A DNA stretch of 10,410 nucleotides from contig JALWZI010000285.1 of assembly GCA_027002755.1 (NCBI GenBank), positions 1 to 10,410 of the forward strand. Direction: 5' to 3'. Positions 290 through 9,776 of the stretch are shown in pieces. Source of the DNA: Campylobacteraceae bacterium. GTDB lineage: Bacteria; Campylobacterota; Campylobacteria; Campylobacterales; Sulfurovaceae. The position numbers were made by a program, and so were the translations under genes. How positions within the stretch are numbered: position 1 is the first letter of the stretch; each line of letters starts with the position of its first letter. The notes beneath the pieces are model-generated. The model ran no database searches and was not told where the DNA came from. It worked only from the letters and a program-made list of their open reading frames with translations.

Positions 290-874
290 ATGGCGGTCCT
301 GCGCAAAAGCATCTCCCCTGAGCTGACGCTGCTGCGCACACCGTTCTTTCCGTGGCGGAGTCCCCGACAGGCACTGCGACAGGGGGAGCATGAGGTCTGG
401 CTGGGGATCGGCGGCAACCTGGGGGATCCGCTGCGGCGTTTCGGGCACCTCTGGCACTTTCTGAAGCGTCAGAAGGATCTGCGTCTGCTGGAGAGTTCTC
501 CGATCCTCGTCAATCCTCCCTTCGGGTATCTGGAACAGCCCGATTTTCACAATGCGGTCCTGCGGATCGCTACGTCGCTGCCCCCGCGTCGGCTTCTGCG
601 CCGGCTTCAGGAGATCGAATGGCGTTTTGGAAGGGTCCGGAGCTTCAAGGACGCCCCCAGGACACTGGATATCGATATACTCTTTTACGAGGATCGGCAG
701 GTGCAACGGCCGGAGCTGACGATCCCCCATCCCCGATGGGCGGAGCGTCCGTCCGTGACCATCCCGCTGGCCAGGATGCAGACATTGCCGCCGCTCGCCC
801 ACAGAAGAATGCAAACGATCCGAAACCATAAAAAAGCCCCCGGGCCCCAGGCCCCGGAGAAAAGGAGCCAATCC
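290..874 (+). CDS. folK: FolK, 6-hydroxymethyl-dihydropterin pyrophosphokinase (HPPK), reads in frame into FlhF
   Basis: HPPK transfers pyrophosphate from ATP to 6-hydroxymethyl-7,8-dihydropterin in cytoplasmic folate synthesis. Residues 39-46 (GIGGNLGD) form the N-terminal nucleotide/pterin motif, 76-90 the loop PPFGYLEQPDFHNAV, 112-131 the HPPK signature with RFGRVRSFK and RTLDIDIL, and 145-161 IPHPRWAERPSVTIPLA. About 30 residues precede the core, including TPFFPWRSP; an extension of this type is what I associate with campylobacterial FolK. The start is the ATG 6 nt after the upstream stop; it has no good Shine-Dalgarno, suggesting translational coupling. No stop codon occurs before the flhF ATG at 875, so the frame runs from 290 to 1936 as one 548-codon ORF. 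The given end is the last base before that ATG, not a stop. The folded HPPK domain should end near residue 165-175, leaving about 20-30 linker residues rich in Lys, Arg, Pro and Gln. Confidence 0.88.
839..857. other. GC-rich hairpin at the folK-flhF junction
   Basis: GGGCC (842-846) and GGCCC (850-854) pair around a 3-nt loop. The stem is extended by CC (839-840) with GG (856-857) across one C-C mismatch. A run of six A (830-835) precedes it, so read on the minus strand it looks like an intrinsic terminator followed by T6. On the plus strand it sits a few bases before the flhF Shine-Dalgarno, where it could tune flhF initiation or stabilise an RNA end. Function is inference. Confidence 0.4.
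862..867 (+). promoter_or_regulatory. Shine-Dalgarno for internal flhF start
   Basis: AAGGAG lies 7 nt before the ATG at 875. This is a strong, correctly spaced site and the main reason to think FlhF is made from its own start even though no stop separates it from FolK. Confidence 0.8.
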
Positions 875-1936
875 ATGATCGAAGAGACCTTCGAAGCCCC
901 GACGCCCAAAGAGGCCTTCGCCCTGGCCCGTTCCAAGTATCCCCATGTCAGCGATCTGCAGCTGCTTCGGGCCCGTCAGACCGTCGGGCGGGACGGGAAA
1001 CTGGTAGCGGAGATCACCGTGGCCGTCCCCGAAGATGACTATCTGGCCAGCCTCGGCCTGAGCGAAGAGGAGGAGCTGATCCGTGAGATGCATGAGCTTC
1101 AGGATCAGATGGAGCGGATGAAGGCAGCGGCGGGGATCCGTGACAAGAGCTCCGAGACCGTGGAAAAGGTCGTCGGGCTTTTGAGCTCCAAAGGACTGCG
1201 CCGCGACTGGCTGATGCAACGGGTGGAACCGATGCTGGGGACGGCGGTGGCGGAGGATGAGAAGCTGCTGCTGAGCTATCTCCTGGAAGAGGTGGACGAG
1301 GGGCTGCGGGTGGTTCCGGAAGATCTCTCCCGTCCCCGGGTGATGATGATGGTGGGGCCGACCGGTGTGGGCAAGACCACGACCATCGCCAAACTGGCGG
1401 CGCGCTACAGCTACCTCCTGGATCGGGACTACCGGGTGGCGCTGATCAATCTGGACAGCTGGCGGGCCGGAGCCTACGAGCAGCTGGACAACTTCGCCCG
1501 GATCCTCCACCTGGAGCATCGCCGGGTGGAGCGGATCGAGGAGTTCGCGGAGCAGTTGGACGCGCTGGCGGACTACGACGTGATCCTGGTGGACACGGCG
1601 GGGATCTCCCCCTTCGACACTGACCGTCTGATCCGAACGGTGGAGTTCCTCAAAAGCGTCCGGGACCGGGAGATCTCCACCTCACTGGTCATCTCCGCCA
1701 CCGCCAAATACGAAGATATCCGTGAGATCTACGAGCACTTCAACTTCATCAATGTGGAGAACGCGATTGTCACCAAATTTGACGAGACGCAGCGGGTGGG
1801 GGACCTGATCGCCTTTTTGACCGAGCGTCATCTGCCGGTGAGCTATCTCAGTACCGGACAGAAGGTCCCCGACGACCTGATCCCGGCGGAAAAAGAGCGG
1901 ATCCTGGACGCCTTCACGGGAGAGCTGCATGCTTGA
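875..1936 (+). CDS. flhF: FlhF, SRP-family GTPase of flagellar biogenesis
   Basis: FlhF is the third SRP-type GTPase beside Ffh and FtsY. It places flagella at the cell pole and, in Helicobacter/Campylobacter, is needed for flagellar gene expression. From the ATG at 875 it is 353 aa. Residues 1-90 form a short B-like region (basic/acidic segment with a likely coiled coil around 62-86), about 90-150 an N-type helical region, and 155-350 the NG GTPase. The G motifs are complete: GPTGVGKTTT (161-170), DSWRAGAYEQL (194-204), DTAG (240-243), TKFDE (300-304) and STGQKVPDDL (326-335). Other campylobacterial FlhF proteins are about 450-480 aa, so the B region looks shortened. The frame is also open upstream through FolK, so a 548-aa fusion is possible. 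The next gene starts inside its last codons. The usual partner flhG is not adjacent. Confidence 0.92.
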   Translation: MIEETFEAPTPKEAFALARSKYPHVSDLQLLRARQTVGRDGKLVAEITVAVPEDDYLASLGLSEEEELIREMHELQDQMERMKAAAGIRDKSSETVEKVVGLLSSKGLRRDWLMQRVEPMLGTAVAEDEKLLLSYLLEEVDEGLRVVPEDLSRPRVMMMVGPTGVGKTTTIAKLAARYSYLLDRDYRVALINLDSWRAGAYEQLDNFARILHLEHRRVERIEEFAEQLDALADYDVILVDTAGISPFDTDRLIRTVEFLKSVRDREISTSLVISATAKYEDIREIYEHFNFINVENAIVTKFDETQRVGDLIAFLTERHLPVSYLSTGQKVPDDLIPAEKERILDAFTGELHA

Positions 1937-2387
1937 GACCCAGGCGCTGCGCCTCAACCGTTCCCGACTTCGGCATCTGCGGGAGGGGGAGTACTGTCTC
2001 TGTCTGGAGCCTCTCTCCCTCAAAAGCAAACATCTGGAGCGTCTGCTCCCCGGTGCCTGGATCGATCTGGGCGGGCAGCTTCCCGAGCTCCAGATCCGTC
2101 GGGACGGCCGAAAGGTCGCCCGGGTTCATCCGGCATCCGAAGGATGGTATGTGGGAGAGTGTGTCGAGGAGGAGCCGGATCTGGCGGAGCGTAAACGGGT
2201 GCTGCTGGAGGGGAGGATCGCGGTCCTTCCGGCAGAGCGTGTAATGCCCGGAGAGCGGATCGAACTTCCCCCTTCGGTCTTCGAACAGGTCCTGCTCTGT
2301 CGGGGAGAGGAGCCTGTGGCGCTGGCGGCACTGGCCCGCTGTTCCGAGGGATACGGTCTGCAGGTGCGGGAGCGTTGTGATGGCTGA
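1929..2387 (+). CDS. Hypothetical 152-aa protein with two SpoA-like (FliN/FliM C-ring type) repeats
   Basis: The ATG overlaps the flhF stop by 8 nt, with GGGAG (1918-1922) 6 nt upstream, so it is translationally coupled to flhF; its own stop overlaps mnmA by 8 nt. I do not recognise the gene by name. It contains an internal duplication: residues 36-79 (start [12 protein letters not shown]) align with 102-149 (start [12 protein letters not shown]). Both continue with a beta-rich stretch, a G-x-x-x-VA turn and an SEG-[WY] segment. That pattern (hydrophobic-PG-x-x-I-[DE]-L, then short strands) resembles the SpoA fold of FliN, the FliM C-terminus, FliY and type III SctQ. Position directly after flhF makes a flagellar or secretion C-ring role plausible. 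There is no signal peptide or membrane segment. The match is by eye and the sequence is divergent; it could be an unrelated small beta-barrel protein. Confidence 0.7.
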
Positions 2388-3556: not shown

Positions 3557-3595
3557 ACATTTCGGATGGGTCAAGGAAGCGGAAAAAGGATGGTC

Positions 3596-4720
3596 ATGGA
3601 GTCGAATAGGGAACGGGAAGACTGGATCGGGGATCTCAAAGAGCTGATAGAGATCAACTCCTACACCCGGAACAAAGCCGGTGTCGATGCAGTGGGGAGA
3701 GTCTTTCGCTCCTGGCTCGAAGAGCTGGGTTACGAGACCGAGGTCCACGCCCGGGAGCTGATCGGAGATCATCTGCTCTTCAGATCTCCGGTCAAAGCGG
3801 GGCAGCGCATTCTGCTGCTCGGGCATCTCGATACGGTCTTTCCTCCGGGAACCTTCGAGGGATTCCGTGAGGACGAAGAGTGGGTCTACGGTCCGGGTGT
3901 CTGTGATATGAAAGGCGGCAACCTGGTGGCGGTGGAGGCGCTGCGGGAGATCCGACGGCGTTTCGGAGCGATCGAAAACATCGATTTTCTGCTGGTCAGC
4001 GACGAGGAGACCGGCAGTGACGACTCCCGGAGACTCACCTCGGAGCTGGCGAAGGAGTACGATCTCTGCTTCGTCTTCGAGGCGGCGGGACCGGACATGA
4101 ACGTGGTCGTCGGGCGCAAAGGAATCGGGACCTTCGAGATCGAGATCGAAGGCAGAGCGGCGCATGCCGGCACCAGCTACGCCGAAGGGATCGACGCCAA
4201 CCTCGAAGCGGCCCGCAAACTCGAACGACTCGTTGCACTGACCGATCTCGAGAAGGGAACGACCGTCAACGTCGGCAAGATCGAAGGGGGCATCGGCGCC
4301 AACACCGTCAGTCCCCGTTCGCGGATTCTCCTGGAGATGCGTTTCGCGAATCTCAACGAGAAGGATCGACTGCTCCGGGCGCTCGAGGAGATCGTACAGG
4401 CCGATTATGTCAAAGGAACGAAAGCGCGCCTCTCGGGCTCCATCCAGCGTGATGTCATGGAACCCGACCGCCGACAGGAGGAGCTGATCCGGACGATGGA
4501 GCGTCTCAGCGGTCACGCCCTGCCGACAGAGAGACGCGGAGGGGTAAGCGACGCCAACATCGTCGCCGCTGCGGGGACCGTGACGCTCGACGGGCTTGGG
4601 CCTTACGGCGACGGGGACCATACGGAGAAGGAGCGGGCGCTCAAAAAGAGTTTCGAGGAGAGAATCGGGCTGATGGTCGCCGTTCTCTCCCGTCATCAGG
4701 AGAAAGGGAGGATCGAATGA
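3596..4720 (+). CDS. M20 family zinc metallopeptidase, carboxypeptidase G2-like
   Basis: This is a 374-aa two-metal M20 hydrolase. Residues resemble carboxypeptidase G2, which removes C-terminal glutamate from folates and peptides. They are His77 and Asp79 in GHLDTVFP, bridging Asp104 in GPGVCDMKGG, catalytic Glu137 and metal Glu138 in SDEETGS, Glu162 in FEAAGP, His190 in the dimerisation-domain RAAHAG, and His342 in GDGDHTEKE. A GVSDAN motif (316-321) precedes the last block. Order and spacing are intact, so it should be active. There is no signal peptide, unlike CPG2 itself, so a cytoplasmic location is inferred. The ATG at 3596 is preferred to those at 3566 and 3590 because AAAAAGGA (3583-3590) lies 5 nt upstream. 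The stop overlaps the next ATG (ATGA). M20 also contains ArgE/DapE/LysK deacylases, so the exact substrate is open; coupling to ATP-grasp ligases suggests an amide it or its partners make. Confidence 0.9.
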   Translation: MESNREREDWIGDLKELIEINSYTRNKAGVDAVGRVFRSWLEELGYETEVHARELIGDHLLFRSPVKAGQRILLLGHLDTVFPPGTFEGFREDEEWVYGPGVCDMKGGNLVAVEALREIRRRFGAIENIDFLLVSDEETGSDDSRRLTSELAKEYDLCFVFEAAGPDMNVVVGRKGIGTFEIEIEGRAAHAGTSYAEGIDANLEAARKLERLVALTDLEKGTTVNVGKIEGGIGANTVSPRSRILLEMRFANLNEKDRLLRALEEIVQADYVKGTKARLSGSIQRDVMEPDRRQEELIRTMERLSGHALPTERRGGVSDANIVAAAGTVTLDGLGPYGDGDHTEKERALKKSFEERIGLMVAVLSRHQEKGRIE

Positions 4721-5652
4721 GTACGAAGAGAAGAGTGGGGATCTGGCTCTACCAGAACGGAGGGGGTGACATCATCGAGGCCAAGATCGTCGCCAAACTG
4801 GCCGAACGCGGCATCGAGGCGGTCACGGGACTCAACCTGCGCAACGCTTATGTGGAGAACGGCTCGATCCTCTGCCAGGACCGCAAGGGGGAGACGGTGC
4901 GGATGGAGGAACTGGATGCCTTCTACAGCTACAACGCCGGCGAACAGACCCAATATCAGATGTATCTCTACGAAGCACTGGACCGGATCGTTCCCTGTGT
5001 CAACAACTACCGCTCCTTCGCCCTGACGGAGGATAAGTTCCAGACTGCCCATCTGCTGCGCAATCACGGCGTGCCGACCCCCGACTTCCGGCTCTGCCAT
5101 CGCGACGACGCCGATCGACTGCGGCAGTTCATGGAGGAGTGGGACCAGATGGTCTACAAGCCCACCGACGGCTGGGGCGGCGTGGGACTGACCAAGATCG
5201 ACTCGCGGGAGACGCTGGATATGCTGTTGCCCTTTCTCAATCAGATGGACCTGCGTTTCTTCTACGTGGAGAAGTTCATCGACTACGACAAGACCGACTA
5301 CCGGGTCGACATCGTCGACGGAGAGTTCATCGGATGCTACGGGCGCAAGGCAGGCGGCGGGGATTGGCGCACCAACGTCACCAGCGGCGGCAGCGTCTTT
5401 CTGCGCGATCCCGAGCCCGAGGTGATCGAACTGGCGAAGAGGGCGGCGGAGGTGACGGGCCTCGAGATCGCCGGTGTGGATATCATCTACGACCTGGGTC
5501 GGGAAGAGTTCGTCGTCCTGGAGGTCAACGGCATCCCAGCGTTCGCCACACCCGAGCAGGAGAAGATGGGACTCGATTTCAATGACCGGAAGATCGAGAA
5601 GGTCGTCGACATCCTGGACCGAAAAAGCACCGAAAACGAGAAACTGAAGTAA
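4717..5652 (+). CDS. RimK-like ATP-grasp amino-acid ligase
   Basis: ATP-grasp enzymes of the RimK/LysX/MptN group form an acyl-phosphate with ATP and join it to an amino acid amine, for example adding glutamate to ribosomal protein S6 or to cofactors. In this 311-aa protein residues 1-95 are the N-terminal alpha/beta lobe. NYRSFALTEDKF (97-108) and HGVPTP (117-122) form the usual entry to the ATP-grasp fold, followed by KPTDGWGGVGL (148-158), the DYRVDIVDGEFIG segment (194-206), and WRTNVTSGGS (217-226) like the RimK T-N-x-x-x-G-G motif. AGVDII (252-257) and LEVNGIPAF (268-276) supply the magnesium-binding Glu and Asn. All core ligands are present. The start has a strong Shine-Dalgarno (AAGGGAGG, 4704-4711) and overlaps the M20 stop, so the two products are made together. 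No LysW-type carrier is adjacent, which weighs against a lysine/arginine biosynthesis role. The acceptor is unknown. Confidence 0.88.
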   Translation: MSTKRRVGIWLYQNGGGDIIEAKIVAKLAERGIEAVTGLNLRNAYVENGSILCQDRKGETVRMEELDAFYSYNAGEQTQYQMYLYEALDRIVPCVNNYRSFALTEDKFQTAHLLRNHGVPTPDFRLCHRDDADRLRQFMEEWDQMVYKPTDGWGGVGLTKIDSRETLDMLLPFLNQMDLRFFYVEKFIDYDKTDYRVDIVDGEFIGCYGRKAGGGDWRTNVTSGGSVFLRDPEPEVIELAKRAAEVTGLEIAGVDIIYDLGREEFVVLEVNGIPAFATPEQEKMGLDFNDRKIEKVVDILDRKSTENEKLK

Positions 5653-5684
5653 AAACACCAAAAAAGATCAAGGAACAGAGAACC

Positions 5685-7046
5685 ATGGCCAAAAAACAGA
5701 AACTCCCCAAGATCGGACTCCTCTATCTCGACTATGTCCTGCGCTTCTTCGACCGCTCCAACTTCAAGGGGTGGCCCGACAGGATCGAAACGGTGGTCTA
5801 CCACTGGGGCAACGACAAAGACCGCTTCATCGAAGAGGTCAAACGCAAGAAGATCGACATCCTGGTGGGCAACATCCCCGCCACCGCCTACGAAACCTTC
5901 CGGGAGATCGCCAGGGCGCTGCCCCATGTGCGCTTTGTCCCCTCCATCGAGACGCAGTTCGCCAACAAGTCCAAAGAGAACGTCACCCTCTTTTGCGAAA
6001 AGCACAATCTCTCCCACCCCGAGACGAAGATCTTCTACGACCGGGAGGAGGGGTACAAATATCTGGAAGAGTGCGAATACCCGATCATCGTCAAGCGCAG
6101 CTACGGCCCCAGCAACTACGGCGGTTACTATGTCCACAAGGTCAAGAGCAAGGAGGAGGCGAAAAAGCTCTTCGACGAGAAGAAGTATCTGCCGATGTAC
6201 ATCCAGGAGTGCATTCCCCTTCGGGCCGACATCCGCGTCATGCTGATCGGCCACAAGCCTGCCTGCGCCTTCTGGCGGGTCGCCGGAGAAGACATGGAGC
6301 TTACCAATACCTCCCAGGGCGGCTATATGACCTACGACGGGGTACCCATGGGAGCTCTGGAACTGGCGGTGGAGGCCTCCAAGGCGGCCAAGGCCGAATA
6401 CTGGGCCTGCGACATCGCCGAGTACGACGGAAAGTACTACATCCTCGAATGCGCCACGGCCTTCGCCGCCTTCCCCTACTTCCGCGACTGGATCGGCCAG
6501 TATCTGATGTGGGACTTCAGCGACGGCTACTTCAAGAAACCCCACATCCCCCTCTACAACTGGGAGGAGCTGGGCAAGATCAACCCTTCGCTGCTGCGGA
6601 CGATGCGCCACATCGAGTTCAGCCGCTACATCCCCTCCACCGACGGCGCGTATTACCTCAACGACAAAGAGGCCGACTGGGACATCGAGTTGACCGAAGA
6701 GAGTGTGCCCGAAGACATTCCGGATGATTCACATCTGCACAAAGCACCTCTGAAAAAGGAGGAGGAGATCCCCGAGCCGGTGCTGGAGGAGGCGAAAAAG
6801 GGAGCCGAGGTGCATCAGGAGCCGGAAGAGGGTGAAATGGACCTGGAGAGCGTGACGCTGACAGAACTGATGACCCTCCACGGTATGGAGGAAGAGATCG
6901 CCGTGGAGGTGATCCGCTACATCAAAAGCCACGACATCCAAAGCCTGGACCAACTGCTGGAAATCGAAGGGATCGACAGGCAGACACTGAAAGTCTGGGC
7001 CGAAGAGCTCCATAGCAAAACGCAACGTGATGATGTAGCCATCTGA
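5685..7046 (+). CDS. Divergent ATP-grasp protein with acidic linker and C-terminal helix-hairpin-helix domain
   Basis: This 453-aa protein begins 32 nt after the previous stop, with AAGGA (5670-5674) upstream of the ATG, and is likely in the same operon. Residues 8-100 are an alpha/beta lobe. The ATP-grasp core follows: YPIIVKRSYGPSNYGG (132-147), MYIQECIPLRADIRVMLIG (171-189), TNTSQGGY (207-214, matching TNVTSGGS of the neighbour) and ACDIAEYDGKYYILECATAF (241-260). In the last motif the metal Glu is kept, but the Asn two residues on (EVN in the neighbour) is Ala. Residues about 335-387 form a Glu/Pro/Lys-rich disordered linker. Residues 388-443 form two helical hairpins (LTLHGMEEEIAVEVI, then LLEIEGIDRQTLKVW) resembling the ComEA-type HhH fold that binds nucleic acid. 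I do not know a named family with this architecture. It may be a second ligase, an amino-acid or acceptor recognition partner, or an inactive paralogue. Confidence 0.82.
   Translation: MAKKQKLPKIGLLYLDYVLRFFDRSNFKGWPDRIETVVYHWGNDKDRFIEEVKRKKIDILVGNIPATAYETFREIARALPHVRFVPSIETQFANKSKENVTLFCEKHNLSHPETKIFYDREEGYKYLEECEYPIIVKRSYGPSNYGGYYVHKVKSKEEAKKLFDEKKYLPMYIQECIPLRADIRVMLIGHKPACAFWRVAGEDMELTNTSQGGYMTYDGVPMGALELAVEASKAAKAEYWACDIAEYDGKYYILECATAFAAFPYFRDWIGQYLMWDFSDGYFKKPHIPLYNWEELGKINPSLLRTMRHIEFSRYIPSTDGAYYLNDKEADWDIELTEESVPEDIPDDSHLHKAPLKKEEEIPEPVLEEAKKGAEVHQEPEEGEMDLESVTLTELMTLHGMEEEIAVEVIRYIKSHDIQSLDQLLEIEGIDRQTLKVWAEELHSKTQRDDVAI
6834..7013 (+). other. Helix-hairpin-helix tail domain of the second ATP-grasp protein
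   Basis: Codons for residues about 384-443. Two hairpins, each with a small-residue turn (HGM and EGI), are separated by a helix with hydrophobic spacing, as in ComEA/HhH_3 domains. The canonical G-x-G turns are only partly kept, so DNA binding is uncertain and a protein-protein role is equally possible. Confidence 0.5.
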
Positions 7047-7119
7047 GGGCGAAGGGAGCCTCACCCCGGGGATCGATCATGGGGAGCAGCTTCGCATAGA
7101 CTCGATCGTTCGAATGGCA

Positions 7120-7134
7120 GGCTGTGAAACAGCC
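7120..7134 (+). terminator. Hairpin between the ATP-grasp operon and the M14 gene
   Basis: GGCTGT (7120-7125) and ACAGCC (7129-7134) form a perfect 6-bp stem with a GAA loop. A T-rich run with CTTTTGATTTT (7143-7153) begins 9 nt downstream. The tract is not directly adjacent, so termination would be weak. The AT-rich stretch 7141-7170 could instead hold a promoter for the M14 gene, but I see no convincing -35/-10 pair. Confidence 0.3.
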
Positions 7135-7181
7135 ATACTGAACTTTTGATTTTCACTATTTACCAAATAAGGACACTGACT

Positions 7182-9776
7182 TTGAAACAACTCTACCACT
7201 CCTACGACGAAGCGGCGGCTCTTTTCCGTGAACTGGCCGAGCGGCGGCCCGATCTTTTCGCCGTGGAGGTGATCGGCCAGACGTGGGAGAAGCGCGACAT
7301 TATCGCCGTGACCATTTCGCAGAACGTGGAGCAGGCTCATGAAAAGCCGGCGCTCTTCTACACCGGAACGATCCATGCCAGAGAGTGGATCGGTCTGGAA
7401 CTGGCGATCGGTTTCGCCCAGTACGTCGATCGCAACATTGCCTACGACCACGATGTCCGGCAGGTGCTGGCCGATGCGGCCATCTACATGGTCCCCTGTG
7501 CCAATCCCGACGGCTTCGAGTACAGCCGCAACCACTTCAGCTTCTGGCGCAAGAACCGCCGCCAGAACGCCGACGGCAGCTATGGAGTGGATCTCAACCG
7601 CAACTTTCCGATAGGATTCGTCAAGAGCAAGAACCCCACCTCCAACGTCTACGGCGGGCCGGAGCCCTTCAGCGAGCCCGAGACCCGTGCCCTTCGCGAT
7701 TTCGTCGAGAGCCATCCCAATATCGCCATCGCCCTGGATTACCACAGCCAGGGGAACGTCTTCTTCCCGGCCCACGACTTTCGCCACGAAGATACGACCG
7801 ACACCACCGACATGAACGTGCTCTGCGCCAATATGGCCGAAGAGATCCGAAAGATAAGCGACCGGGAGTACGGCATCCATCAGGGAAAGCCTCCGACGAA
7901 GCTGATCTCCGGCAGCGGGCGGGAGTTCTACTACTCCAAAGGGATCCTGGCCACCGTCGTGGAGGTGGGCACCCGCAACATCTCTGACTATCTCGACGAT
8001 ATGATCGAGCATATCCGCGAGCACATCCCCGCTCTCATCGCCGCACTCAAAGAGGCGCCCAACTATGCCAAAGAGGGGCTCATGCCCCGCCCCGAAAACT
8101 TCCGGGCCACCTTTGTGGGCAAAGATACCGTGACGCTGGAGTGGGAACCCTACCCTTGTGGCGAGGGTGAGGAGATCTACTTCGAAATCTACCGCAGCCA
8201 CCGGGAGAAGAGCTACTGCCGCCCCTTCAACCTGATGGGGCTGACCCAGGCCAACCGCTACGCCGACGCCAACCTCTGGAGCGACACCGCCTACTTCTAC
8301 CACATTCGCGCCGTCGACAAGCGCAGCGGCCGAAAATCTCCCTTCGCCCCGGTTCTGGCGGTGCGCACGAGCGTGAGCGAAGACGAGTTTCACCGCACCT
8401 ACTTCCCGCTCCCCGACAAGACCGGCTACGTCGCCCAGAAGGCCAAGGACAACGCCGCCCATTTCGGCGTCAACTCCCTCTTCGTCGGTGTGAACGAGAC
8501 AAAGGGGATCAGCTACACGATGCTCAATTTTCCACTGAAGACGATCCCCGAAAACGCCAAGATCAAGCATGCACGGCTGCGCCTCTACCCCCTCAACCGG
8601 GTCGGGGTGACGGTGGAGAAGTATGGCGAGTGGGATGCCGGCATCGTGGAGCCGGAGAGCGTGAAGGACGTCACGAAATTCGATGAGGTGGACAGAGCGG
8701 AGATCCGCTCCTACGTCGGGCGCCCGACGCCCAGCAACCACCTGACCCAGGGGATCTGGCGCAGCTGGGATTTCAGTGAGATCGAGTGCCGCGAGCTGCA
8801 GAAGTGCATCGGGGACAAAGCGGTGACCTTCCGTATCGAGGGGCCCAAAACGCTGCCCGTAGGCCGGACGTCGCAGATGATGCAGTGGGACCTGGGATAC
8901 GGCAAGTTTGGCGGCGGCCTGGCCTTTCGGCCGCAGCTGGAGATCACCTACACCCTGGAGCCCAACACCATGGAGCTCTTTCCGCGTCAAAGCTACACCG
9001 TCAGTGCAGAGGGTGTGGAAGAAGGGAAGATCCTCGCCGGTTTCGACGCCAAGGGGCGCAAGATCTACGCCACTTTCGACGTGGAGCTGGGGTCGCTGCC
9101 CGATTGGGAGTTCATGCAGATCACCCGGGCCTACGTGATCCTCAAACCGGTCAACGTCTATGCCAAAGAGAATATCCGCTTCCATCTGGAGATGATCGAT
9201 GCCGACACCGAGCGCAACTACGAGGCGATCAAAAACCGGCAGATCATCGAAAACATCGGCTACGACGTCAGCGTCAGCGAGCTGAAGAACCAGGAGCAGA
9301 TCTTCCTCTTCGACAGTTACGCGATCCAGGAACTGGGCAACCGGTTACGGGACAAGAAGTCGATCGCCTTTCTGCTGCGCCCAAGCGCCGCCCAGAAGCT
9401 GGTGAAAAACTCGGTGGTGGAGTGGCACAGCTCCCATCCCGAATTCACCCCCAAACTGGTGATCGAGTATCTCCACAAACGCCGCCGTCCCGTGGCCCCG
9501 GTGAGCGACCTGAAATACAAAATAGAGAACGGCAAGATCAAACTCACCTGGAAGAACCCGTCGGACAAGGATTTCAAAGGGGTCTTCGTCATCAAAAACC
9601 CCTTCCGAAAGCCCATCAATCCCTACGACGGCGACAAGCTCTACGGCGGCCCCGACAACTGGACTTTTGATGACTTCGGGGCGCTGGACGTGAAGAAATA
9701 CTATGCCGTCTTCACCTACGACGACGTCCCCAATTTCAGCGAACCGGTGATATTGGAGTACCGGCCCAGGAAGTAG
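7182..9776 (+). CDS. M14 zinc carboxypeptidase fused to FN3-like and beta-sandwich (DNRLRE/CBM96-like) modules
   Basis: The protein is 864 aa from TTG at 7182, with AAGGA (7169-7173) 8 nt upstream. No ATG lies between the in-frame stop at 7125 and the catalytic motifs, so the start must be non-ATG. Residues 1-290 are an M14 carboxypeptidase: zinc ligands His65 and Glu68 in HAREW and His188 in DYHSQ, substrate-binding residues in FWRKNR (Arg123) and DLNRNF (Arg140), catalytic Glu261 in VVEVGT. Aligning SGSGREFYYSKG (243-254) with carboxypeptidases A/B puts Arg247 at the S1' specificity position, which predicts acidic C-terminal residues. Residues 301-397 look like an FN3 domain, 398-595 and 600-768 like two DNRLRE-type beta-sandwich modules (LRLYP at 466-470), 769-864 a second FN3-like domain. 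There is no signal peptide or membrane segment, odd for such modules. It lies 135 nt after the ATP-grasp genes and is probably functionally linked. Confidence 0.88.
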   Translation: MKQLYHSYDEAAALFRELAERRPDLFAVEVIGQTWEKRDIIAVTISQNVEQAHEKPALFYTGTIHAREWIGLELAIGFAQYVDRNIAYDHDVRQVLADAAIYMVPCANPDGFEYSRNHFSFWRKNRRQNADGSYGVDLNRNFPIGFVKSKNPTSNVYGGPEPFSEPETRALRDFVESHPNIAIALDYHSQGNVFFPAHDFRHEDTTDTTDMNVLCANMAEEIRKISDREYGIHQGKPPTKLISGSGREFYYSKGILATVVEVGTRNISDYLDDMIEHIREHIPALIAALKEAPNYAKEGLMPRPENFRATFVGKDTVTLEWEPYPCGEGEEIYFEIYRSHREKSYCRPFNLMGLTQANRYADANLWSDTAYFYHIRAVDKRSGRKSPFAPVLAVRTSVSEDEFHRTYFPLPDKTGYVAQKAKDNAAHFGVNSLFVGVNETKGISYTMLNFPLKTIPENAKIKHARLRLYPLNRVGVTVEKYGEWDAGIVEPESVKDVTKFDEVDRAEIRSYVGRPTPSNHLTQGIWRSWDFSEIECRELQKCIGDKAVTFRIEGPKTLPVGRTSQMMQWDLGYGKFGGGLAFRPQLEITYTLEPNTMELFPRQSYTVSAEGVEEGKILAGFDAKGRKIYATFDVELGSLPDWEFMQITRAYVILKPVNVYAKENIRFHLEMIDADTERNYEAIKNRQIIENIGYDVSVSELKNQEQIFLFDSYAIQELGNRLRDKKSIAFLLRPSAAQKLVKNSVVEWHSSHPEFTPKLVIEYLHKRRRPVAPVSDLKYKIENGKIKLTWKNPSDKDFKGVFVIKNPFRKPINPYDGDKLYGGPDNWTFDDFGALDVKKYYAVFTYDDVPNFSEPVILEYRPRK

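Follow-up and report, generated by a model that had tools for sequence, protein, structure and literature searches.

The genes and their layout

A stretch of 10,410 nucleotides from contig C285 of the draft genome (1.57 Mb, 76% complete) of a Campylobacteraceae bacterium, the whole of which is here called the window, carries four adjoining genes on one strand: an M20 metallopeptidase, two ATP-grasp proteins, termed AG1 and AG2, and an M14 zinc carboxypeptidase (Table 1). They lie where a reading made from the letters alone (the sequence-only reading) had placed them, and on the strand that it gave. The packing is close, with the M20 stop and AG1 start overlapping as ATGA, a gap of 32 bases between AG1 and AG2 and one of 135 bases between AG2 and the start of M14. 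Translation of M20 most likely begins at ATG 3596, the start that had been proposed, Met11 of the open reading frame (ORF) being nearly invariant in the alignment and the codon verified; that of M14 most likely begins at TTG 7182, where the aligned position is nearly always Met.

Table 1. Features of the four-gene set (window positions; residue numbers are those of the ORFs)
Feature	Position	Strand	Basis
M20 metallopeptidase, carboxypeptidase G2-like	3596..4720 (ORF 3566-4720)	+	PF01546, PF07687; 1cg2 relative
AG1, RimK/MptN-like ATP-grasp ligase	4717..5652	+	PF08443; metal motif; DWRTN...GG
AG2, second ATP-grasp protein, LysX-like, with helix-hairpin-helix (HhH) tail	5685..7046	+	RimK Pfam match; nearest LysX
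AG2 residues E255-C256-A257, Ala in place of the E-x-N Asn of RimK and AG1	6447..6455	+	Alignment
AG2 C-terminal HhH tail, residues 386-439	6840..7001	+	HHH_3 sub-threshold; model helices
M14 zinc carboxypeptidase, carboxypeptidase A/B (CPA/CPB) type	7182..9776 (ORF 7146-9776)	+	Pfam Peptidase_M14; fn3-like and more beta-rich domains
M14 Arg259, equivalent to carboxypeptidase A residue 255, specificity residue	7920..7922	+	Alignment
M14 C-terminal two thirds: fn3-like (315-395), DNRLRE-like (435-491), beta-rich to 876	8088..9773	+	Sub-threshold matches; model

Conservation of the set in Campylobacterota

Is the juxtaposition of these genes more than an accident of one genome? Two sets of genomes, which share members, were searched: 60 relatives, and 200 genomes drawn evenly from the class (E<=1e-30). 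Among the 200, AG2 has 18 matches, 17 near full length and one a remnant in G088 (G and L numbers denote genomes and loci). M14 is present in exactly the same 17 genomes as near full-length AG2, AG1 in those 17 and G044, and M20, at more than 500 bits, in those 17, G044 and G109; six weaker M20 matches (180-196 bits) are in another genus. Since AG2 and M14 share 17 of 200 genomes and AG1 and M20 have nearly the same distribution, the module is real: the four genes are one conserved functional unit. Treating the genomes as independent draws, an assumption that does not hold, would give the coincidence of AG2 and M14 a probability of about 5e-25. AG2 is patchily distributed (10 of 47 genera), and set-positive and set-negative species occur within each of five genera (g1, g2, g4, g5 and g26), so that the co-occurrence is beyond chance with less dependence on kinship. 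Malaciobacter halophilus and Hydrogenimonas are among the carriers. Co-occurrence across genomes had been proposed as the check on the sequence-only reading, and the genes do indeed travel together widely beyond this genome, many marine bacteria inheriting or losing them jointly.

With strong matches in the 60 relatives defined by thresholds set by eye (AG1 at least 85, AG2 at least 400, M20 at least 400 and M14 at least 700 bits), AG1, AG2 and M20 were each found in 23 genomes and M14 in 24; all four are in 21 genomes, part of the set is in 6 and there is no strong match in 33. One genome counted as complete, G037, has its genes on two contigs, AG1 and AG2 being partial there. In G003, G009, G030 and G012 (the last with an M14 fragment only) the absent neighbours would fall past the contig end. 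Remnants also occur: G088 has a piece of AG2 alone, about 100 codons with internal stops (L176 9716-9976), and G018 has short M20 and M14 pieces (L177 2489-3127 is among the remnant loci). That the four are unrelated housekeeping genes which happen to be neighbours is ruled out by the co-occurrence in the 200 genomes together with the remnants in G088 and G018.

Linkage and genomic neighbours

A scan of genome contigs based on AG1 gave 130 relatives, of which the best 80 loci, all from Campylobacterota by title, were used for gene order; within these 80 the closest named relatives by AG1 identity are metagenome-assembled genomes of Nitratifractor and Hydrogenimonas. The order M20-AG1-AG2-M14 is co-directional in 26 loci and has M20 divergent in 25, while in 9 M20-AG1-M14 lacks an intervening AG2 and the other 20 are partial. 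Many of the 29 loci without all four genes stop at the end of a contig or of the stretch; some, such as L114, L116, L129 and L148, do not, and linkage is therefore strong rather than absolute. Five genomes have complete yet scattered sets: in G046 the four genes are on four different contigs, in G020 and G029 M20 and M14 are apart from AG1-AG2, and in G051 and G173 AG2 is elsewhere. The separated AG2 of G051 and G173, which belong to one genus, is directly behind efp and before dnaE, both named by eye (L068 8336-10418, L189 6020-8040). In G020 and G029, again of one genus, a 95-aa ORF and then rpsF, ssb and rpsR come after the separated M14, ssb and rpsR being named by eye (L223 3155-6501, minus strand; L224 2437-5795, plus strand).

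Over 44 loci that have all four genes at full length (L253 included), correlations between the pairwise distances of the proteins are 0.71-0.94, values that none of 1000 permutations reached; shared ancestry of the hosts contributes to this correlation. No fifth co-travelling gene was found among the neighbours in 107 loci, a count to which one genome may contribute several loci. Outside the set the genes met most often are TrmD (19 of 107) and RplS (18 of 107, M20 in these lying after rplS), both from one recurring location behind the rplS operon. No recurrent precursor-peptide partner of the ligases was present among adjoining ORFs of at least 45 aa.

In the window the set is preceded by a folK-flhF frame, an ORF of 152 aa and mnmA, and is followed by a gene for a DUF2059 protein. 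As a single open frame of 548 aa (290-1936, plus strand) spans both an HPPK (folK) domain and an FlhF-type GTPase, the two genes appear to be fused. For the 152-aa ORF between flhF and mnmA (1929-2387, plus strand) neither Pfam nor NCBIfam gives a match at E<=0.01.

Occurrence beyond the phylum

A search of 72,556 plasmid records with AG2 gave one match, a replicon of 2.1 Mb from Photobacterium sp. DA100, a gammaproteobacterium. All four genes are contiguous there, M20 being divergent and followed by AG1, AG2 and M14 with overlapping stops and starts; identities are 68% over 71% of AG2, 47% over 98% of M14, 54% for AG1 and 56% for M20. The presence of all four in a row points to horizontal transfer of the whole set between phyla. 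At E<=1e-50 there are 1357 homologues of M14 in Gammaproteobacteria, and the best 120 of these are 55-95% identical to the Photobacterium M14, nearly all at full length. Vibrio, Grimontia, Moritella, Endozoicomonas, Halomonas, Thalassotalea, Alteromonas and Agarivorans are among the genera in the matches listed. They are named on M14 only, AG1, AG2 and M20 having been seen in that class in Photobacterium sp. DA100 alone. For AG2, 1325 of 7994 sequences scored are homologues at E<=1e-5, and the best 120 of the 1325 leave the family boundary unset. No AG2 match at E<=1e-10 was found in 50,697 phage records, and none of the viral contigs searched matched patterns of the Photobacterium AG2.

The two ATP-grasp proteins

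AG1 passes the Pfam cut-off for RimK (PF08443; 63.9 bits against 21). Its best NCBIfam score is to MptN_Meth (NF040720; 124.8 bits, cut-off 350), followed by 120.3 bits to rimK_fam (TIGR00768; cut-off 143.4). It aligns to RimK and has a complete metal motif, D255...E269-x-N271, as well as the DWRTN...GG motif; D255, E269 and N271, together with D216, N220, G224 and G225, are invariant in 24 sequences. AG2 also scores above the Pfam RimK cut-off, at 37.9 bits, and is nearest by sequence to LysX (TIGR02144; 59.8 bits, cut-off 275.6). K137, R184, N208, D243 and E255 are invariant in 39 AG2 sequences and the TNTSQGG loop is nearly so; the D243-E255 spacing of 12 is that of RimK, with the codons verified. 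For both proteins the closest ligases are those that join acidic amino acids, namely RimK, MptN, LysX and ArgX. LysX and RimK each couple an acidic amino acid to the carboxylate of a Glu.

AG2 ends in what is predicted to be an HhH tail. In the window the match to HHH_3 is sub-threshold (21.8 bits, E 2e-4, against a Pfam cut-off of 27), and residues 391-440 are predicted to be helical with a block pLDDT (predicted local distance difference test) of 77-88. At E<=0.05 HHH_5 is matched by 24 of the 39 AG2 proteins and HHH_3 by 11, sets which may overlap. The tail, first suggested for the window's copy, accordingly recurs across AG2 proteins, with widely variable sequence.

The two peptidases

Both M20 domains score above their Pfam cut-offs (Peptidase_M20 75.3 bits, M20_dimer 64.7 bits), so that the protein has the catalytic and dimerisation domains of an M20 peptidase, with the metal ligands. 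Its closest solved structure is carboxypeptidase G2 (CPG2; 1cg2, E 3.6e-42), bearing out the resemblance that had been remarked on. H87, D89, D114, E147, E148, E172 and H352 (ORF numbering) are invariant in 18 sequences, the window's included, and their codons were verified; their catalytic roles, which we take to be those of CPG2, were transferred through the alignment. For the glutamate specificity of CPG2 the picture is mixed: in alignments read by hand the equivalents of its Asn275, Arg288 and Arg324 are conserved and that of its Lys208 is not.

The M14 protein scores 199.8 bits to Pfam Peptidase_M14, above the cut-off, and has the CPA/CPB-type fold and catalytic residues: HxxE and the equivalents of R127, N144/R145, H196 and E270. 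Structures of CPA/CPB type are its top matches in a structure comparison, the tables of which are largely confined to the catalytic domain of M14 and those of the ATP-grasp proteins. At the specificity position Arg259 aligns with the Ile of CPA4 SGSSIDW; it is invariant in 41 sequences, and GSGRE is present at 44 of 44 loci and in all 8 gammaproteobacterial homologues read (counts which overlap in part with the 41). An Arg at this position accompanies acidic specificity in characterised relatives, and Xenopus Cpo.1 cut a Glu-Glu test substrate and not the other two (PMC9925722). Having the same residue as these characterised relatives, M14 is predicted to prefer acidic C-termini; the preference had been predicted before, and the residue on which it hinges is in every copy examined.

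The C-terminal part of M14 is nearly all beta in the predicted structure. Its matches to fn3 (PF00041, 22.7 bits, cut-off 25) and DNRLRE (24 bits, cut-off 34) are below the cut-offs, and a match to fn3 at E<=0.05 is found in 35 of 41 M14 proteins. In the forms read there is no N-terminal extension: the protein begins right at the catalytic domain, and export is therefore not evident. Of the eight gammaproteobacterial M14 proteins that were read, seven (P0249, P0270, P0275, P0295, P0325, P0338 and P0333) have a Glu/Asp-rich C-terminal tail that the window's M14 lacks; in the eighth, P0343, the end is of another kind and shorter.

A proposed cycle of acidic-residue addition and removal

A ligase-like pair stands beside one peptidase predicted to trim acidic residues and another from an amide-cleaving family; most simply read, they would jointly add acidic residues in a reversible way. 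We put at about one half the probability that the set is a horizontally mobile four-gene cassette running such a cycle, most simply with glutamate, on an acceptor. AG1, of RimK/MptN type, and AG2, of LysX type and bearing the HhH tail, would ligate acidic amino acids to the acceptor at the expense of ATP. M14 would take acidic residues off the C-terminal end one at a time, and M20 would hydrolyse the remaining amide-linked amino acid or a released dipeptide. Judging from the families, the labour may be so divided that AG2 makes and M20 removes the first or side-chain linkage, AG1 elongates and M14 trims the chain. The gene set, its domain architectures and co-inheritance, the catalytic residues of AG1, M14 and M20 and the specificity residue of M14 are observed; we infer glutamate as the added residue, ligase activity of AG2, the order of the steps, a cytoplasmic location and the acceptor itself. 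A more elaborate proposal, less likely than not, is that this is a bacterial counterpart of the glutamylation code of tubulin: AG2, brought near its target or nucleic acid by the HhH tail, would set the first acidic residue, AG1 would extend it, M14 would shorten the chain and M20 would remove the branch-point residue, so tuning the charge of an intracellular acceptor, with the cassette spreading as a unit between Campylobacterota and marine Gammaproteobacteria.

Several observations weigh against the proposed cycle or against the unity of the set. Neither ATP-grasp protein reaches the NCBIfam cut-off of RimK, MptN or LysX. Contig ends do not suffice to explain G027, without M14 and with 1.3 kb of contig after AG2, G044, with M20 and AG1 only and 0.6 kb after AG1, or G109, which keeps M20 alone, at full length (L175 9172-10260). 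In M20 the equivalent of CPG2 Lys208 is not conserved in the alignment. Opposite CPA Tyr248 the M14 profile has a residue other than Tyr, in a region where the alignment may be shifted by a few residues, and domains like fn3 and DNRLRE are found more often in secreted proteins. AG2 has E-C-A instead of an intact E-x-N metal motif, E255, C256 and A257 all being invariant in 39 of 39 sequences, and with Ala in place of the Asn it might be inactive or do other chemistry.

This last point has its own explanation, namely that AG2 is no ligase but a pseudo-ATP-grasp partner whose HhH tail would bring AG1 to its substrate or to nucleic acid. The replacement of the Asn ligand in all 39 sequences accords with this, as do the HhH matches of at least 24 of the 39 tails, but the other motif residues and the TNTSQGG loop are kept as strictly as set out above, and certain active ATP-grasp enzymes, PurK for example, are without this Asn; we regard the idea as doubtful. 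A serious rival, if on balance an unlikely one, dispenses with the acceptor: the ligases, alternating or dividing start and extension, would make a free acidic peptide or reserve polymer, which M14, held by its beta-rich domains, would degrade from the C-terminus and whose last dipeptides M20 would split, as cyanophycinase and isoaspartyl dipeptidase do in cyanophycin breakdown. Two ligases and two exopeptidases without a dedicated fifth neighbour would fit such a pathway, as would an M14 for which export is not evident, and precedents are the free polyglutamate that MyfB yields in vitro (PMC8141765) and the poly-alpha-L-glutamate produced by RimK (PMC11957791). Neither ligase has a Mur-ligase domain, however, an HhH tail would be unexpected, and the first of these papers deems free polyglutamate likely to be a side activity.

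If there is an acceptor, what might it be? A protein of the translation apparatus, as ribosomal protein S6 is for RimK, is brought to mind by the relocated M14 two genes ahead of rpsF, the AG2 directly after efp and the M20 after rplS. S6 was sought in the 60 relatives and found in 55 (no match in G000, G009, G030, G036 and G042). With an acidic tail taken as at least four Asp/Glu after a motif chosen by the analyst, and the fragment-only G012 and G018 set aside, 21 of 23 set-positive genomes (incomplete G003, G027 and G044 included) have one, but so do 21 of 30 set-negative genomes (p=0.09), and positives and negatives of the same genus have tails alike. The S6 tails do not track the set and give S6 as acceptor no support, which also counts against the proposed cycle. 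Independent relocations are few and the remaining neighbours unrelated; a translation acceptor is improbable. Much the same standing, that of an outside chance, is given to a polyacidic side chain on a small cofactor or metabolite, as in MyfA/MyfB-methylofuran or MptN-tetrahydromethanopterin: MptN is the top NCBIfam score of AG1, and the methylofuran chain is the work of a pair of ATP-grasp enzymes, MyfA and MyfB (PMC8141765), but trimming enzymes are no part of that pathway as described in the portion of the paper used, and no recurring cofactor biosynthesis gene is beside the set among neighbours judged by eye. A LysW-type carrier-protein pathway would account for the nearness of AG2 to LysX and for an M20 hydrolase such as LysK, yet it leaves M14 unexplained and is very improbable indeed. 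LysW itself was rejected as a carrier, none of the 60 relatives being above its cut-off and 10 having weak matches at E<=0.1; of 14 control genomes, 3 have a LysW above the cut-off.

Comparison with known systems

Cycles in which acidic residues are added and removed do exist, since RimK/RimB (PMC11957791) and TTLL/CCP (PMC10404701) perform them. RimK-RimB pairs a RimK-type ATP-grasp ligase with a glutamate-removing enzyme (PMC11957791) in the reversible poly-glutamylation of S6, with one ligase and a retropepsin-like aspartic endopeptidase, whereas here there are two ATP-grasp proteins and two zinc exopeptidases; among eight window ORFs scanned only M20 and M14 are above the cut-off of a peptidase family, neither an aspartic one. 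Tubulin modification begins with a gamma-linked residue and goes on with alpha-linked ones; carboxypeptidases shorten the chain, and the branch point has an eraser of its own (PMC10404701). The likeness to it is an analogy of logic only: the second eraser here is an M20 enzyme, M14 best matches structures of CPA/CPB type and neither AG1 nor AG2 has a match to the TTL family at E<=0.01. MyfA and MyfB are like the pair here in being two ATP-grasp enzymes of one polyglutamate pathway, and unlike it in serving a cofactor acceptor, with peptidases not mentioned in the part of the account drawn on (PMC8141765).

Below their cut-offs are scores to several other ligase families: cya_phycin_syn (42.9 bits, cut-off 850), N-acetylglutaminylglutamine synthetase TIGR03103 (29.7 bits, cut-off 569), the graspetide MvdC/MvdD type (20.3 and 16.1 bits, cut-offs 425 and 475) and the GAK-system ATP-grasp TIGR04356 (AG1 61.8 and AG2 31.4 bits, cut-off 300). 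The LysX/ArgX-LysW-LysK system likewise combines a LysX-like ATP-grasp protein with an M20 hydrolase, and has no counterpart of M14 or of the RimK-like AG1. Cyanophycin synthetase, cyanophycinase and isoaspartyl dipeptidase make up two ligation activities and two exopeptidase steps; here by contrast there are two separate short ATP-grasp proteins with no Mur-ligase domain, and the peptidase families are unrelated. Iyer and colleagues in 2009 reportedly predicted amidoligase-peptidase neighbourhoods in which ATP-grasp ligases are linked to peptidases, a general likeness.

The four-gene set had seemed unfamiliar to the sequence-only reading, and no description of it was found in the open-licence literature either, judged by titles and abstract beginnings and partly sampled. 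What recommends it is a compact, clearly delimited module in named bacteria. If the proposed cycle is true, this would be a bacterial acidic-tag system with two writers and two erasers, of a simplicity that would allow its reconstruction in E. coli, and tubulin's logic of initiating, elongating, shortening and removing would have its parallel in bacteria, with enzymes of other families. Should the product be a free polymer or peptide instead, it would be a new storage or solute pathway. Reversible acidic tagging by an ATP-grasp ligase and a peptidase is a known kind of system; new, as far as the literature searched goes, would be the union of two writers with two zinc exopeptidases in a cassette that is found across phyla.

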